A stretch of DNA of 33,051 nucleotides, taken from contig JAFZEX010000028.1 of NCBI GenBank assembly GCA_017560425.1, forward strand, positions 67,736 through 100,786, in the 5' to 3' direction. Positions 26,353-33,051 of this stretch are shown in pieces. Both the position numbers and the translations under genes were made by a program. How positions within the stretch are numbered: position 1 is the stretch's first letter; each line of letters opens with the position of its first letter. The notes under the pieces are model-generated. The model did no database searches. It was not told the origin of the DNA and saw only the letters and a program-made list of their open reading frames with translations. Source of the stretch: Alistipes sp. (lineage in GTDB: Bacteria > Bacteroidota > Bacteroidia > Bacteroidales > Rikenellaceae).

Positions 26353-27810
26353 ATGACAAGAATCTATAACATTGCCTTTGTGGCTCTCGTGACACTAACA
26401 ATGGCCATTGTAGGCTGCGAGAAGACAGGAACACTGTCGATAAGCATACCTTCGGAGGGTATTCTCATCGAGGTGGGTCATGCTGGTGATCGAGGCTCAA
26501 CAACCTTTAAGTCACACAACATCTGCGCCATAGATGTTCTATCGACACCTAAGGGCTGGAGCGTCGTGGAGATCGACATGTACACAAAAACCATCACCGT
26601 GGAGTCGCCAAATAGCTTCGAGAATGAGGAGGAGCGCTCGGGCACTATCAGCCTCAAGGGCTACACCCCAGAGGGCGTGCAGAAGACAATATCGTTGTAT
26701 GTGGCTATCCTCGAGAATCCCGATGTAGACTACCGCACAGCACCTGCCAACTGCTACATCGCCAATGTGCCTGCCACACGCTATCTCTTCGATGCAACGG
26801 TGGGTGGTAGCGCTACCCCACTCAACACCGCATCTATTACGCTAATATGGCAGACCACAACCGACCTTGTGAAGTATATCGACTTTCACGATGGCGTTGG
26901 CGAGTTCTACATCGAGGCTAAGGAGAGCACCGACGATAGTGGCACAACAACGACAAAACTCACTGCCGGCAACGCCCTTATCGGCGCATACGATGCCGAG
27001 GGCGAGCTTCTTTGGACTTGGCATATATGGGTTACTAACAGCAAGCCCGAGGAGGAGGTTATCACGCTGGGTGGCAAGACCTTGATGAACATCAATCTTG
27101 GCGCCGACTGCAACAGCAATGGCGAGAAGGAGGGCACAAAAATCGGTTCGTCATACGGCTTATACTACCAGTGGGGTCGTCGCACACCTATCGTGGGCGC
27201 TGCGGCATGGGACTTCGCACTAAATAGCGACATGATACCTTATAACGCTACGGGCGGATATGTGCGTGTGCAGTATGCCGACTCGTCGGCTGAGGAGGGC
27301 ACCGTGGAGTGGGCTTGTGCTAACCCTTCGACCATGATTCGTGGTAACGAGAAGAACGCCTTCGATTGGTTGTACGAGGGTCACGAGGCGCTGTGGAGTG
27401 CAACAGCAAAGAGCGAGCACGACCCATGTCCTGCGGGCTGGCGCATACCTGATAGCTCGGTATATGCCAACCTTACGATCAACCCCGTTGATGATGATAT
27501 GGCATGGAAGGAGGCACAAGGCATGTATGGCTGGAACCTCGTGGATAAGAACGATCAGAGCAAGAGCTACTTCTTCACGGCTGCTGGCCGCCGCAACTAC
27601 CTCGATGGTCGCCTCGACATTATGAACGACGATGACGAGCGCCCTGTGCCCTGGTCGGGCTACTACTGGACCGCATCCATGACTGATGACGGCAAGGCCG
27701 AGGCAATGTTCTTCGACCTAAATAGCCAAACCCGCACATGGAACGGCTTTAGCAGCGCGATGCCAATGTACCGCGCCAACGCAATGCCCGTACGCTGTGT
27801 TAGGGAGTAA
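26353..27810 (+). CDS. Lipoprotein with BACON-like and FISUMP domains
   Basis: A 485-residue lipoprotein (lipobox AIVGC, Cys22). The N-terminal part (about 25-120) is an Ig-like beta-sandwich of BACON type (GWSVVEIDMYTKTITVESP, RSGTISLKGYTPEG). The C-terminal half (about 239-485) is a FISUMP (Fib_succ_major) domain with its typical pieces: LMNINLGADCN, YGLYYQWGRRTPIVG, EHDPCPAGWRIPD, AAGRRNYLDG, SGYYWTASM and the closing ANAMPVRCVRE. Such lipoproteins are exposed on the surface of many gut Bacteroidetes. The last 17 codons and the downstream terminator are repeated at 30749-30869. Confidence 0.88.
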   Translation: MTRIYNIAFVALVTLTMAIVGCEKTGTLSISIPSEGILIEVGHAGDRGSTTFKSHNICAIDVLSTPKGWSVVEIDMYTKTITVESPNSFENEEERSGTISLKGYTPEGVQKTISLYVAILENPDVDYRTAPANCYIANVPATRYLFDATVGGSATPLNTASITLIWQTTTDLVKYIDFHDGVGEFYIEAKESTDDSGTTTTKLTAGNALIGAYDAEGELLWTWHIWVTNSKPEEEVITLGGKTLMNINLGADCNSNGEKEGTKIGSSYGLYYQWGRRTPIVGAAAWDFALNSDMIPYNATGGYVRVQYADSSAEEGTVEWACANPSTMIRGNEKNAFDWLYEGHEALWSATAKSEHDPCPAGWRIPDSSVYANLTINPVDDDMAWKEAQGMYGWNLVDKNDQSKSYFFTAAGRRNYLDGRLDIMNDDDERPVPWSGYYWTASMTDDGKAEAMFFDLNSQTRTWNGFSSAMPMYRANAMPVRCVRE

Positions 27811-27874
27811 ACAATACCAAAACACCTAAGCGGAGTGCCACACGGTACTCCGCTTTTTTTGTGGGATAAATGGG
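27754..27874 (+). repeat. 121-base direct repeat, copy 1 (gene end plus terminator)
   Basis: This segment is repeated at 30749-30869 with an offset of exactly 2995 and two differences (27759 G/A, 27786 G/A). It spans the last codons of the FISUMP lipoprotein gene, its stop codon and the terminator. Confidence 0.95.
27829..27860 (+). terminator. Terminator of the sensor-TrkH-SPOR-FISUMP operon
   Basis: An 11-base stem with one G-U pair (arm AGCGGAGTGCC, loop ACAC) followed by seven T. It begins 19 bases after the stop codon. Confidence 0.92.
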
Positions 27875-27978: not shown

Positions 27979-28003
27979 GATGCCATAATTTTATTATTTC
28001 TAA

Positions 28004-28035
28004 TTTGGTGGAAAACTTTTATAAAGTTATCTTTG
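28004..28035 (+). promoter_or_regulatory. Promoter of the TPR regulator gene
   Basis: TTTG (28004-28007), a 20-base spacer and TATCTTTG (28028-28035). The -33 region reads TTTGGTGGAAAACTTTT, almost the same as in front of the lipocalin-like gene. The ATG at 28058 is 22 bases downstream. Confidence 0.8.
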
Positions 28036-28057
28036 TATTGTGAACAAACTTTTGGAT

Positions 28058-29808: not shown

Positions 29809-29811
29809 TAT

Positions 29812-29842
29812 TTTGTGGAAAACTTTTCATAGGGTAACTTTG
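29812..29842 (+). promoter_or_regulatory. Promoter of the lipocalin-like lipoprotein gene
   Basis: TTTG (29812-29815), a 19-base spacer and TAACTTTG (29835-29842); the -33 region is TTTGTGGAAAACTTTT. The ATG at 29902 lies 59 bases downstream. Confidence 0.8.
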
Positions 29843-29901
29843 TGTTAGAAAAAATCGCGAAAGAGTAATAACCTATTGTTAAACCTATAAAACTTAGAAC
29901 T

Positions 29902-30657
29902 ATGAAAAAGAGTTTATTTATGTTGTTGATGCTTGCGGTAGCGGGCATGACAATGTCGTGCGAGAAAGATGTTATTGACCCCACAAATGAAAATGAGGCT
30001 AACAACTCAACAAATGCTGTAAAGGATGCTGATGCCACTGCGATGAAGGAACTCCTTGGAAGTTGGGAATATGTGGCTGTGGCTGATAAGGACGATCAGT
30101 TCTACAGCCATACAGATTATGTTTTCTATTTCTGGGAAGATTGCAATGGTTATCTAACTATTGATGCGTATGATAAGTCAAACCTTATAAACTCAACTAC
30201 GAGAAATTCGTTGACATACTGGGTGGATAACGAAATATTGTATATAAAATATGGCAACTCATCGCCTATCGAGTGGGAGTATAGATTCCAGGACAACACG
30301 CTAATCATGCGCTCTGATATGGATGAGTATAATAATACCTATGTATTTACCAAGGCCGAGGATGGTGATATGCGTTTTGTTGGCGACTGGAGCACAACGC
30401 GAAAAGATGGCGATAGATACTATGATGAACATATCAAATTTGTAACTCCCAAGGATGGATTTACATATTATAGTGGATATGACAATCCAAATCCACAATG
30501 GTTTAAGTACACCTTCGATGGTGATATGCTCATTATGACAAACATTGACTCTACTACATCAACAAAGAAATATTATCGCTTTGAGGATGGTAAGCTCTAC
30601 TTGAGCGACGAGAATGGTGGCATTGAGACTTACTACAGCACAATCAAGAAGGAATAG
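29902..30657 (+). CDS. Lipoprotein with two lipocalin-like halves
   Basis: A 251-residue lipoprotein (lipobox MTMSC, Cys20) with a short acidic/Asn-rich linker (21-45). Two similar halves follow: about 50-150 (LLGSWEYVAVADKD ... WEYRFQDNTLIM ... YVFTKAEDG) and about 155-248 (FVGDWSTTRKDGD ... FKYTFDGDMLIM ... YYRFEDGKLYL). Each begins with the G-x-W motif and ends in a strand with D-x-L-I-M, the pattern of the small lipocalin-like domains common in Bacteroidales lipoproteins. The ligand is unknown. No terminator follows directly; a 49-base gap leads to the micro-ORF and the copied terminator at 30824. Confidence 0.75.
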   Translation: MKKSLFMLLMLAVAGMTMSCEKDVIDPTNENEANNSTNAVKDADATAMKELLGSWEYVAVADKDDQFYSHTDYVFYFWEDCNGYLTIDAYDKSNLINSTTRNSLTYWVDNEILYIKYGNSSPIEWEYRFQDNTLIMRSDMDEYNNTYVFTKAEDGDMRFVGDWSTTRKDGDRYYDEHIKFVTPKDGFTYYSGYDNPNPQWFKYTFDGDMLIMTNIDSTTSTKKYYRFEDGKLYLSDENGGIETYYSTIKKE

Positions 30658-30706: not shown

Positions 30707-30805
30707 ATGAAAAGATTTGTTTACTGCCTAATGGCAATGGTTGTAGCAAGCGCAATGCCAATGTACCGCGCCAACGCAATACCCGTACGCTGTGTTAGGG
30801 AGTAA
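30707..30805 (+). pseudogene. 32-codon chimeric ORF: new signal start fused to FISUMP C-terminus
   Basis: ATG at 30707 opens a frame of 32 codons. The first 14 residues (KRFVYCLMAMVVA after the Met) look like the start of a lipoprotein or signal peptide similar to the neighbours' MKRF/MKRV leaders; the last 17 or so (SAMPMYRANAIPVRCVRE) are the end of the FISUMP lipoprotein with one Met-to-Ile change. The join is in frame. It is most simply the relic of a lipoprotein gene that lost its middle, but expression as a small exported peptide cannot be excluded. It is preceded by the lipocalin-like gene without an intervening terminator. Confidence 0.65.
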
Positions 30806-30869
30806 ACAATACCAAAACACCTAAGCGGAGTGCCACACGGTACTCCGCTTTTTTTGTGGGATAAATGGG
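30749..30869 (+). repeat. 121-base direct repeat, copy 2
   Basis: Second copy of 27754-27874, with two substitutions in 121 bases (30754 A, 30781 A). Identity is complete over the 64 bases after the stop codon, which argues for recent duplication or gene conversion rather than shared protein constraint. Confidence 0.95.
30824..30855 (+). terminator. Copied terminator after the chimeric ORF
   Basis: Identical to the terminator at 27829-27860: 11-base stem, ACAC loop, seven T. It probably ends the transcript of the lipocalin-like gene. Confidence 0.9.
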
Positions 30870-31176: not shown

Positions 31177-31875
31177 ATGAAACGTTTTCTTTTTTGTGCA
31201 GTAGCATTAGCCCTTTCGTACGTCACAACATCGTGCGAGAAGTTAGAGGACTTGGGTATACTACCCGAATCGCAAAAGTACCATATCGAGATGGGGATTA
31301 CATGGCAAGAGTGGGGACTCTATAAAACATTTATCTCGAACGACACCGAATGGTATTGGAACATAGTCACTGGCGATACCCTCGAGTTTCTAATTAGGGA
31401 GAACCACGATGGTATGAAGGTCTTAACCTCGTTTGGACTCACCAGGCGCTATATCTCAATTCCGTGCGACGACTCAATGACAAGAGAAGCTGTGTTGAGT
31501 ATGCGCCTCTACCTACAAGACATCAAACTTGAAGAGGGTGTTAAATACTATTTTGGCGACACCGAAGAGAGAGATATAAGTGATGGCGTCTGTGCATCGA
31601 CCTACACAGACAATTATGGCACTGAGATCTCGTCATATATCGCCCTAAATATGAGGGGCTACACTGGCTATAATTCATCGACATTTGGCTGGGTAAAGTT
31701 CACAAGGATTGAACTTACGCACGACAATGACGAGGGTTTTGCAGATGCGTACGACATAGACTTGCAGTTTGGATTTGAGGTCAAAGACCCCGAAACGGGC
31801 GAGATAATACAAATGGTTGAGCACGGCAACATTATCAAAAACCCTGGCTACTGGGAGGTGTGTGGGGTACGATAA
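31177..31875 (+). CDS. Lipoprotein of unknown function
   Basis: A 232-residue lipoprotein (lipobox TTSC, Cys20, followed by EKLEDLG). The mature part is predicted to be mostly beta strands with many aromatic residues (TWQEWGLYKTFISNDTEWYWN, shortened motif W-x-x-W-G-L; GYTGYNSSTFGWVKFTRIEL) and no enzyme motif I recognise. It has its own promoter and the shared upstream element, so it probably belongs to the same regulon as its neighbours. No clear terminator follows. I do not recognise the family. Confidence 0.72.
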   Translation: MKRFLFCAVALALSYVTTSCEKLEDLGILPESQKYHIEMGITWQEWGLYKTFISNDTEWYWNIVTGDTLEFLIRENHDGMKVLTSFGLTRRYISIPCDDSMTREAVLSMRLYLQDIKLEEGVKYYFGDTEERDISDGVCASTYTDNYGTEISSYIALNMRGYTGYNSSTFGWVKFTRIELTHDNDEGFADAYDIDLQFGFEVKDPETGEIIQMVEHGNIIKNPGYWEVCGVR

Positions 31876-31925
31876 AGTAGCATTAGTACCACTGCATGGT
31901 TATGCGATATGCAAAAAAACTACAT

Positions 31926-31945
31926 ACTGATAATCATTTTCTTAC
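31926..31945 (+). promoter_or_regulatory. Shared upstream element, copy D
   Basis: ACTG followed by ATAATCATTTTCTTAC; matches copy C in the ATAATCA and CTTAC blocks. The ATAATC begins 23 bases before the -33 TTTG. Confidence 0.45.
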
Positions 31946-31952
31946 CTCGAAA

Positions 31953-31983
31953 TTTGGAAAAGTCGAGGGGGGGGGTAAATTTG
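31953..31983 (+). promoter_or_regulatory. Promoter with G9 tract in the spacer (candidate phase-variable)
   Basis: TTTG (31953-31956), a 19-base spacer that ends in nine consecutive G (31967-31975), and TAAATTTG (31976-31983). The -33 box sits in the loop of a CCTCGA / TCGAGG inverted repeat (31945-31950 and 31963-31968). A change in the number of G would shift the spacer from its optimum. Confidence 0.7.
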
Positions 31984-32053
31984 TGGTAGAAATATATTGC
32001 AAGTAGGTGTCAGGAAATAGGAGTTGCAACGTAATATATATAAAAGTAAAGAT

Positions 32054-33051
32054 ATGAAAAGAGTAATTTTTTGTTTTGTTGCATTGTGCTGCACAATGCT
32101 ATTTGTAGGCTGTAAGACAAATCACGACGTTGAATTTGAAAACAACCTTATCAGGCTATCAGACGAGCACACGTCGAGCCGATTTCACAATGGCGACAAC
32201 ATCAATTTTTACTACCACTGCGAGTTTGCCACCAAGGTAGATTTTGCTATCAAGGCGGAAGATGACACAACGATACTAATGCAAAAGGTAGCCAACCTAA
32301 AGCCTGGCGAGGGATATATAACATTCAAGATTGACACTGACGGCTACGAGGGCAAGGCATTTATATATATAACGTATAATGGCATTAAGCGCGCCAACAA
32401 AAAACAGAGCAACGATGTTAGCACAGCCATTTGGGAGATAACCATAACAAATGAGGGATCGTGGTACTATCACACCGAGGCAATCAACGAGCTTCTTGAG
32501 AGCTGCAAGAATTTCGATGCCGAGATGCTCATTGCGGGTCTTGCCGGCAAGTGGGAGAGCGACTCATTGCTTATCTACGATGATGAGTGGGCAAAGATCA
32601 CAACACCTCTTCGTGTTATGGGCGAGGACTACGTTGATGGTAGAGCATATTCATATTACACCTTCGCAGCCGATGGCACAGGTTATCGCTATGTTGATTA
32701 CCCTGAGCCCGACATGGAGCCCGAGACACTCGAGTTTAGCTGGACATACAATGCCGAGAGTGGCAAGCTCACACTTAGTGGCGACTACAACAATGAGTGG
32801 AAAGTAACGGGCTATAGCAACTACTATATTGTGCTCGACCAGATTAGCCGAGAGGGCTGGAACTACCGCACAATCCTTAAGCGTCAGGCAGAAGTGGATG
32901 TACCAACGGTTATTTCATATATGGAGTACACACTATCAGGAACGCAGTGTGAGTGGCAACTGCCACTACTCAACAACAATGTTATCATTGTAGATAGCGA
33001 CGAGGATCTTACGAAATACATCACCTCTGAAAATGGAGATAGTTACCCTCA
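32054..33051 (+). CDS. Lipoprotein with Ig-like and lipocalin-like parts, 3' end outside window
   Basis: An ATG at 32054 opens a frame of 332 codons that runs off the window. The N-terminus has a lipobox (LFVGC, Cys20). Residues about 25-135 look like a beta-sandwich ending in STAIWEITITNEG. From about 136 on, YYHTEAINELLESCKNF is a helix, then AGLAGKWESDSLLIYDD starts a lipocalin-like barrel (G-x-W motif) that runs to about 280. The arrangement resembles other Bacteroidales surface lipoproteins but I cannot name the family. Its promoter carries the G9 tract, 71 bases before the ATG. Confidence 0.75.
   Translation, partial: MKRVIFCFVALCCTMLFVGCKTNHDVEFENNLIRLSDEHTSSRFHNGDNINFYYHCEFATKVDFAIKAEDDTTILMQKVANLKPGEGYITFKIDTDGYEGKAFIYITYNGIKRANKKQSNDVSTAIWEITITNEGSWYYHTEAINELLESCKNFDAEMLIAGLAGKWESDSLLIYDDEWAKITTPLRVMGEDYVDGRAYSYYTFAADGTGYRYVDYPEPDMEPETLEFSWTYNAESGKLTLSGDYNNEWKVTGYSNYYIVLDQISREGWNYRTILKRQAEVDVPTVISYMEYTLSGTQCEWQLPLLNNNVIIVDSDEDLTKYITSENGDSYP

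Follow-up and report, generated by a model that had tools for sequence, protein, structure and literature searches.

The window locus

The window analysed here is a stretch of 33,051 nucleotides from Alistipes sp. (GenBank assembly GCA_017560425.1, contig JAFZEX010000028.1, positions 67,736 to 100,786 of the forward strand). Near its 3' end lies a lipoprotein gene, preceded by a promoter whose spacer ends in a run of nine G residues. The features of the locus are listed in order of position.

31935..31947, + strand: upstream part of the element; family stretch CACTTTTCTGCC, degenerate in the window copy (CATTTTCTTACCT)
31945..31968, + strand: inverted repeat CCTCGA/TCGAGG, 6 bp, around the -33 box; local, not conserved
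31953..31956, + strand: -33 box TTTG, inside the conserved core AAATTTGGAAAA
31957..31975, + strand: promoter spacer of 19 nt with the G tract at its 3' end
31967..31975, + strand: G9 homopolymer, the proposed slippage site
31976..31983, + strand: -7 box TAAATTTG, matching TAnnTTTG
32054..33051, + strand: lipoprotein gene downstream of the element, extending past the window end; weak Lipocalin_4 match

A sequence-only reading of this DNA had placed nine Gs directly before the -7 box, in a 19-base spacer between TTTG and TAAATTTG, and both letters and coordinates agree with it. By sequence match the two boxes are those of a primary sigma-ABfr promoter (TTTG near -33, TAnnTTTG near -7), and the 19-nt spacer falls within the spacer-length peak of the genus; in the window copy the upstream box departs from the strict form, CANTTTT. 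A scan of window positions 31850-32150 for promoters of the E. coli type returned nothing relevant. The earlier remark that no other G run of this length is present is accurate for the window, where the tract is the sole run of at least 8 G on either strand, but not for the whole assembly (1.84 Mb in 50 contigs), which contains 11 G9 places. Overlapping G8 matches number 2 in the window against a shuffle mean of 0.21, a count of 2 being reached in 3 of 100 shuffles. A second G9 of the same genome (L005, 1501-1509; G000:C22:42863-42871) lies upstream of the -7-like sequence TATCTTTG, adjoining the TTTG side, and precedes a 168-aa exported-looking protein.

The inverted repeat, in whose loop the -33 box had been noted to lie, is present in the window as described: its arms occupy 31945-31950 (CCTCGA) and 31963-31968 (TCGAGG), TTTG falls in the 12-nt loop, and the right arm includes the first two Gs of the tract. 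As a feature of the wider family described below it does not hold up, a perfect 6-bp repeat around TTTG being found in 2 of 83 elements, the window's own included, and we rejected it as a shared trait of the elements. A shorter pair, CGAA..TTCG, occurs in 21 of the 83.

The product of the downstream gene resembles Lipocalin_4 over residues 163-252, with an E value (3.4e-4) that places it just under the Pfam cut-off, and shares 50% identity over 147 aa with another lipoprotein (L159) that itself stands behind a G8 element. Separate portions of the window protein (residues ~135-283, 279-332 and ~30-120) match different proteins of the genus, as if they were exchangeable domains.

A recurrent promoter module in the genus

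The window promoter is one copy of a recurrent module whose reality is nearly certain. A promoter of ~60 bp with the layout CACTTTTCTGCC..AAAATTTGGAAAATTC..G8-10-TAAATTTGTAG was sought in 180 genomes of the genus with the pattern TTTG..G6+..TAAWTTTG, and 52 of them contain it (76 rows, representing 75 distinct places). The reversed pattern and a version of the element carrying a C run each gave 0 matches in the same 180 genomes, by which a chance origin is ruled out. Searches of an even sample of the order outside the genus (0 of 392 genomes) and of viral_contigs, the latter bearing on a phage origin (0 stretches), were likewise negative. When the promoter together with the start of the gene was used as a DNA query against 41 genomes, it matched in 9 other genomes of the genus, and did so through the promoter stretch alone. 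The G run is also a regular companion of the core when it is not demanded by the search: TTTGGAAAWTT..TAAATTTG, sought without a G requirement, gave 69 matches, 63 of them with a G run. In 60 of these, 7-11 G abut the -7 box (two with a further GGA in front), in 3 the run is interrupted, and the remaining 6 matches have none.

Named records carrying the element are bins titled Alistipes, Rikenellaceae and Tidjanibacter from ruminant guts, together with a few contigs under other bin names; the bin titles, like the order name Bacteroidales, are those of the depositors. Three contigs with the genus element (L191, L210 and L219) come from bins titled Lachnospiraceae, Paludibacteraceae and Bacteroidaceae and are probably misbinned.

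Conservation within the family, weighted over 25 downstream gene clusters, begins ~18 nt upstream of TTTG, ends ~17 nt beyond the first base of the -7 box and comprises, in order, CACTTTTCTGCC, AAAATTTGGAAAATTC, the G tract and TAAATTTGTAG; the core including the -33 box recurs under this weighting, and the upstream conservation of CACTTTTCTGCC is located at -18 to -7 from TTTG. Ordinary promoters of the same loci provide a useful comparison. The strict CANTTTT box occurs in 26 of the 83 elements entered in the motif table (from a total of 85) versus 0 of 68 ordinary promoters; the 68 lack the GGAAAATTC extension as well as the upstream box, and at the third A position of TAAATTTG 62% of them carry C. 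The ~60-bp conserved context suggests something more than a bare repeat in a promoter spacer.

Genes behind the element

The element precedes genes of diverse kinds that share the likelihood of being exported. Of 87 elements kept, 85 were used, the contigs of the other two (L083 and L148) ending before any ORF; 7 of the 85 come from named records outside the genus list, and one further G-rich match (L116) was dropped by the filter on upstream letters. A simple rule, which asks for a signal or a lipobox, scores 81 of the 85 as exported-like, compared with 68 of 127 further ORFs from these loci (p 3e-12). The rule is lax, as the proportion of controls passing it indicates; the minimum length was 150 aa for controls and 80 aa for element ORFs, and the p values overstate independence since the loci are related by descent. 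The four that are not exported-like are L096 and L139, in which the first ATG lies upstream of the lipoprotein start, and L146 and L149, whose ORFs are far away or probably wrong. By BLAST the ORFs behind the element form some 25 clusters, of which at least one probably represents a wrong ORF. Among 62 of the 85 proteins, Pfam assignments include outer-membrane barrels, carboxypeptidase-regulatory domains and BACON domains (5 each), M16 and S41 peptidases (3 each) and Lipocalin_4 (2), other families having one or two members each. The G-run promoters are thus a multi-gene family before surface-protein genes and no lone oddity. The earlier proposal of a single switched lipoprotein gene consequently needs a wider scope, even where its reading of the promoter as phase-variable, argued from sequence, may be retained.

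Spacer length and its expected effect

Spacer lengths differ between the two kinds of promoter. Among 68 ordinary promoters of the genus, searched at 18-21 nt, spacers of 18 nt occurred 3 times, 19 nt 18 times, 20 nt 41 times and 21 nt 6 times, and a wider scan placed the peak at the same position. The 62 G-run promoters had spacers of 17 nt (1), 18 nt (17), 19 nt (37), 20 nt (2), 21 nt (3), 22 nt (1) and 23 nt (1). When 18 nt is set against 19-20 nt, the G-run promoters show an excess at 18 (Fisher p 3.5e-4, for loci that are related). With the usual flank, G8 gives an 18-nt spacer and G9 a 19-nt one, and of 83 elements 46 combine G9 with 19 nt and 15 combine G8 with 18 nt; the exceptions are G9 with 18 nt (3), G9 with 20-21 nt (4) and G7 with 19 nt (1).

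The simplest reading of these distributions is that spacers of 19-20 nt function and those of 18 nt do so poorly, and therefore that, where G8 stands with the usual flank, most of the cells sequenced may have the locus turned down. Tract and spacer do not change in lockstep, which limits the notion of G8 as a low state to elements with the usual flank and lowers our confidence in tract-length control very slightly.

Variation in tract length

Counts in related genomes, proposed earlier as a check, gave tracts that are not all nine: across the loci of relatives they range from G7 to G11. In the 60 core matches recovered without a G requirement, the lengths are G7 (1), G8 (15), G9 (39), G10 (4) and G11 (1). 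The clearest instance is a pair of assembled contigs representing a relatives' locus, the window locus itself being known from one copy. One of the two (L170) derives from an Alistipes bin, RGIG6253, of sheep rectum, and the other (L219) from a Bacteroidaceae bin in a co-assembly of sheep colon. Over 6,720 aligned bp they have a single gap, of 1 nt, and this gap is the tract (G8 vs G9); the 9 substitutions are confined to the final 156 bp, and the 6,564 bp before these differ in the tract alone. Related loci of 92-97% identity also differ (L105/L183, G9/G8; L128/L186, G11/G9), and other related pairs have equal tracts (L080/L081, G9/G9; L082/L104, G9/G9 at both loci). A broader comparison of 195 pairs, most of them poorly aligned in the flanks, gave no support for a tract indel rate above that of the flanks: 94 pairs differ in the tract, with 0.054 indels per position there and 0.073 in the flanks. 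Overall, the assembled sequences indicate that tract-length polymorphism is likely to be real.

A probable phase-variable promoter and its alternatives

Long G tracts slip often. We regard it as probable that the family represents slipped-strand, phase-variable promoters serving multiple genes for surface proteins, because the element recurs, stands before exported-like genes, is polymorphic in tract length in assembled DNA, and, with the usual flank, shifts between a spacer length that is common among ordinary promoters (19 nt) and one that is rare among them (18 nt). That tract length controls expression is, from the same kind of sequence comparison, a proposition we consider a good deal better than even. 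In outline, TTTG and TAAATTTG would be bound by RNA polymerase carrying the primary sigma factor of Bacteroidota; slipped-strand mispairing in replication would add or remove single Gs from the run and so alter the distance between the boxes, for which 19-20 nt (G9-G10 in the usual flank) would be the usual value and 18 nt (G8) a rare one; and each locus would flip at random between high and low expression, rendering a population a mix of surface types. We infer slippage as the cause of the polymorphism, spacing as the setter of promoter strength, and relevance at the host or phage interface. The earlier suggestion that the window lipoprotein is switched by tract length is in keeping with a tract located in a Bacteroidota-type promoter spacer, with lengths that differ among relatives and with the exported-like genes downstream; the inverted repeat, being only local, drops out of it. 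Counting against the reading are the fixed orientation of the run, with no C-run counterpart, and the ~60-bp conserved context, which are more than bare slippage needs.

The chief alternative is a dedicated activator or alternative sigma factor that reads the ~60-bp element (CACTTTTCTGCC, GGAAAATTC, G run, TAAATTTG), an explanation that we judge unlikely. The G run would then be part of a binding site, or would phase an activator to the -7 box, in an ordinary environmental regulon, and the variation in tract length would be a by-product or a slow tuning knob. Family-weighted conservation reaches strongly beyond the two core boxes, this context is missing from the ordinary promoters at those loci, the C-run version is absent from the 180 genomes, and the layout TTTGGAAA..G run..TAAATTTG is found in distant Bacteroidota as well, all of which favour such a regulator. 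A tract that varies by up to 4 nt, and by 1 nt in near-identical DNA, is nevertheless something that a rigid site would hardly tolerate. A regulator is moreover compatible with switching: in the account excerpted from PMC1891110, the fim promoters of Bordetella have both a C stretch and a conserved box, the fim box.

It is also conceivable, though distinctly improbable, that errors of sequencing or assembly created the length differences and that the tract is fixed in nature. Homopolymers are error-prone, the evidence consists of assembled contigs, and the L170 and L219 contigs, with 3 homopolymer runs of at least 6, offer no other long one as a yardstick. Against this, the tract occurs at one promoter position in assemblies from several studies (RGIG, SIG, SRR15429246 and an isolate genome), with controls at zero, and diverged matching loci differ in length as well.

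Possible gene exchange at the element

Three upstream neighbour genes are each associated with 2 to 6 different downstream clusters behind the element. Behind the end of a duplicated permease gene (ADOP-like, under the NCBIfam cut-off), the element mostly follows ~49 nt later and is succeeded by differing small exported genes, which recur in other orders across genomes; two further upstream neighbours behave in the same way. Islands with the duplicated permease (L273-L284, L186, L191 and L210) present one poly-G element and then interchangeable small exported genes in varying order. Among 37 pairs of loci that are alike upstream only, 29 are alike into the element, with the likeness ending 0-31 bp behind the -7 box, whereas ordinary promoters, compared in this way, gave 0 of 6. 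Different downstream clusters follow in 26 of the 29, and these pairs come from three groups of 7, 5 and 2 loci. Where the likeness stops is dictated by the sharing of the element; the finding lies in the change of downstream genes and not in the exact edge.

These arrangements allow the reading that the element serves above all for the exchange of surface genes, as a recombination junction or a portable promoter unit, with the poly-G tract as a passenger, but the match must end at the element border by construction where the element is shared, the upstream groups are only three and related by descent, one grouped locus (L149) has a probably wrong ORF and the control comprises 6 ordinary pairs, and we consider it very improbable as the principal explanation.

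The window gene at 29902 has an ordinary promoter, and a relative that is 75% identical to it, in genome G144, has a G9 element; the gene upstream of that element matches the window gene at 28040 in 29 of its final 30 residues. The genes at 28040 and 29902 both have ordinary promoters, which form a 37-nt repeat (window 28003-28039 and 29810-29846) with 78% identity between its copies and contain no G tract. A direct repeat of 121 nt, 98% identical between its copies at 27754-27874 and 30749-30869, comprises the 3' end of a Fib_succ_major-like gene (26353-27810; Pfam match under the cut-off) and the sequence behind it. Its second copy forms the end of a 32-codon ORF from 30707 that has a signal-peptide-like start, and is apparently a recombination remnant.

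Occurrence beyond the genus

The layout TTTG..G run..TAnnTTTG is found 4 times in Phaeodactylibacter xiamenensis KD52 and 3 times, once without the core, in a bin that also holds locus L162. With 90% identity over 2,383 bp, matching loci of the two Phaeodactylibacter genomes carry G7 versus G9; the same difference in length separates two related loci of KD52. The poly-G promoters of this species, which is represented by an isolate genome (L263-L269, from KD52 and the bin with L162), include one whose tract is interrupted by A. In another Bacteroidota family the layout is present in 3 of 10 genomes with tracts of G7 to G12 (L228, L232 and L270-L272), and of the 5 poly-G loci in that family all three first proteins that were scanned match the pinensin lanthipeptide leader above its curated cut-off. 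From a phylum sample of 395 genomes, 7 had a match: 5 were chance-like G6 matches without the core, 1 was the window's genome and 1 was G478, a genome of the lanthipeptide family, these last two being the only genomes of the sample with real elements. The looser pattern used there also matches controls (7 matches, in 5 of the 395 genomes), so single weak matches in the phylum mean nothing.

The likeness among these lineages may reflect descent, transfer or convergence. We tentatively raise, as a doubtful idea, that a portable poly-G module spread over at least three distant Bacteroidota lineages makes genes for surface proteins or secreted peptides phase-variable and serves at the same time as a junction for gene exchange. 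The lineages in question would be a gut genus of Rikenellaceae type, Phaeodactylibacter and the family with pinensin-type lanthipeptide precursors, and the module, in this equally doubtful form, would couple switching with reassortment of the surface repertoire.

Implications and relation to known systems

If the tract sets expression, bacteria of the ruminant gut switch sets of surface proteins at random, and a count of Gs in existing metagenomes could reveal their states. Screens for invertible DNA would miss a switch of one base. The same layout before lanthipeptide precursors suggests on/off switching of secreted peptides, and a common sequence before many unrelated genes is a ready marker.

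In the open-licence PMC literature, exclusive of preprints, we found no such poly-G promoter module in Bacteroidota, and excerpts of PMC12632263 and PMC11868660 present the phase variation of gut Bacteroidales in terms of DNA inversion. The class of mechanism is known from Neisseria and Bordetella. The invertible promoters of Bacteroidales share with the present elements the random switching of surface genes and the bacterial order, but there, according to part of PMC12632263, a recombinase flips DNA between inverted repeats, and here the variable feature is a homopolymer. Canonical sigma-ABfr promoters have the same boxes, TTTG and TAnnTTTG (excerpts of PMC7366714; the -7 box also in those of PMC12632263), and differ in an AT-rich spacer (PMC7366714, in part), about half of the spacer being G in the elements described here.

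A close parallel is found in promoters of the porA type in Neisseria meningitidis, in which a homopolymer lies between the -35 and -10 boxes and its length sets their spacing; with repeats so placed, optimal expression is usually centred on one tract length (both from portions of PMC4235727, which cites a porA study for the latter). That system belongs to another phylum with another sigma factor, and portions of PMC4235727 name single genes and their tract lengths (porA, fetA, opc and nadA), whereas here one module of ~60 bp stands before some 25 clusters. The fim2, fim3 and fimX genes of Bordetella resemble our family as several surface genes under a common promoter element composed of a homopolymer and a conserved box, and a fimX tract longer by one base was accompanied by a 3.8-fold lower transcript level (excerpts of PMC1891110). 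The Bordetella promoters employ a C stretch before genes for fimbrial subunits; the Bacteroidota elements carry a G run that abuts the -7 box, before many unrelated clusters.
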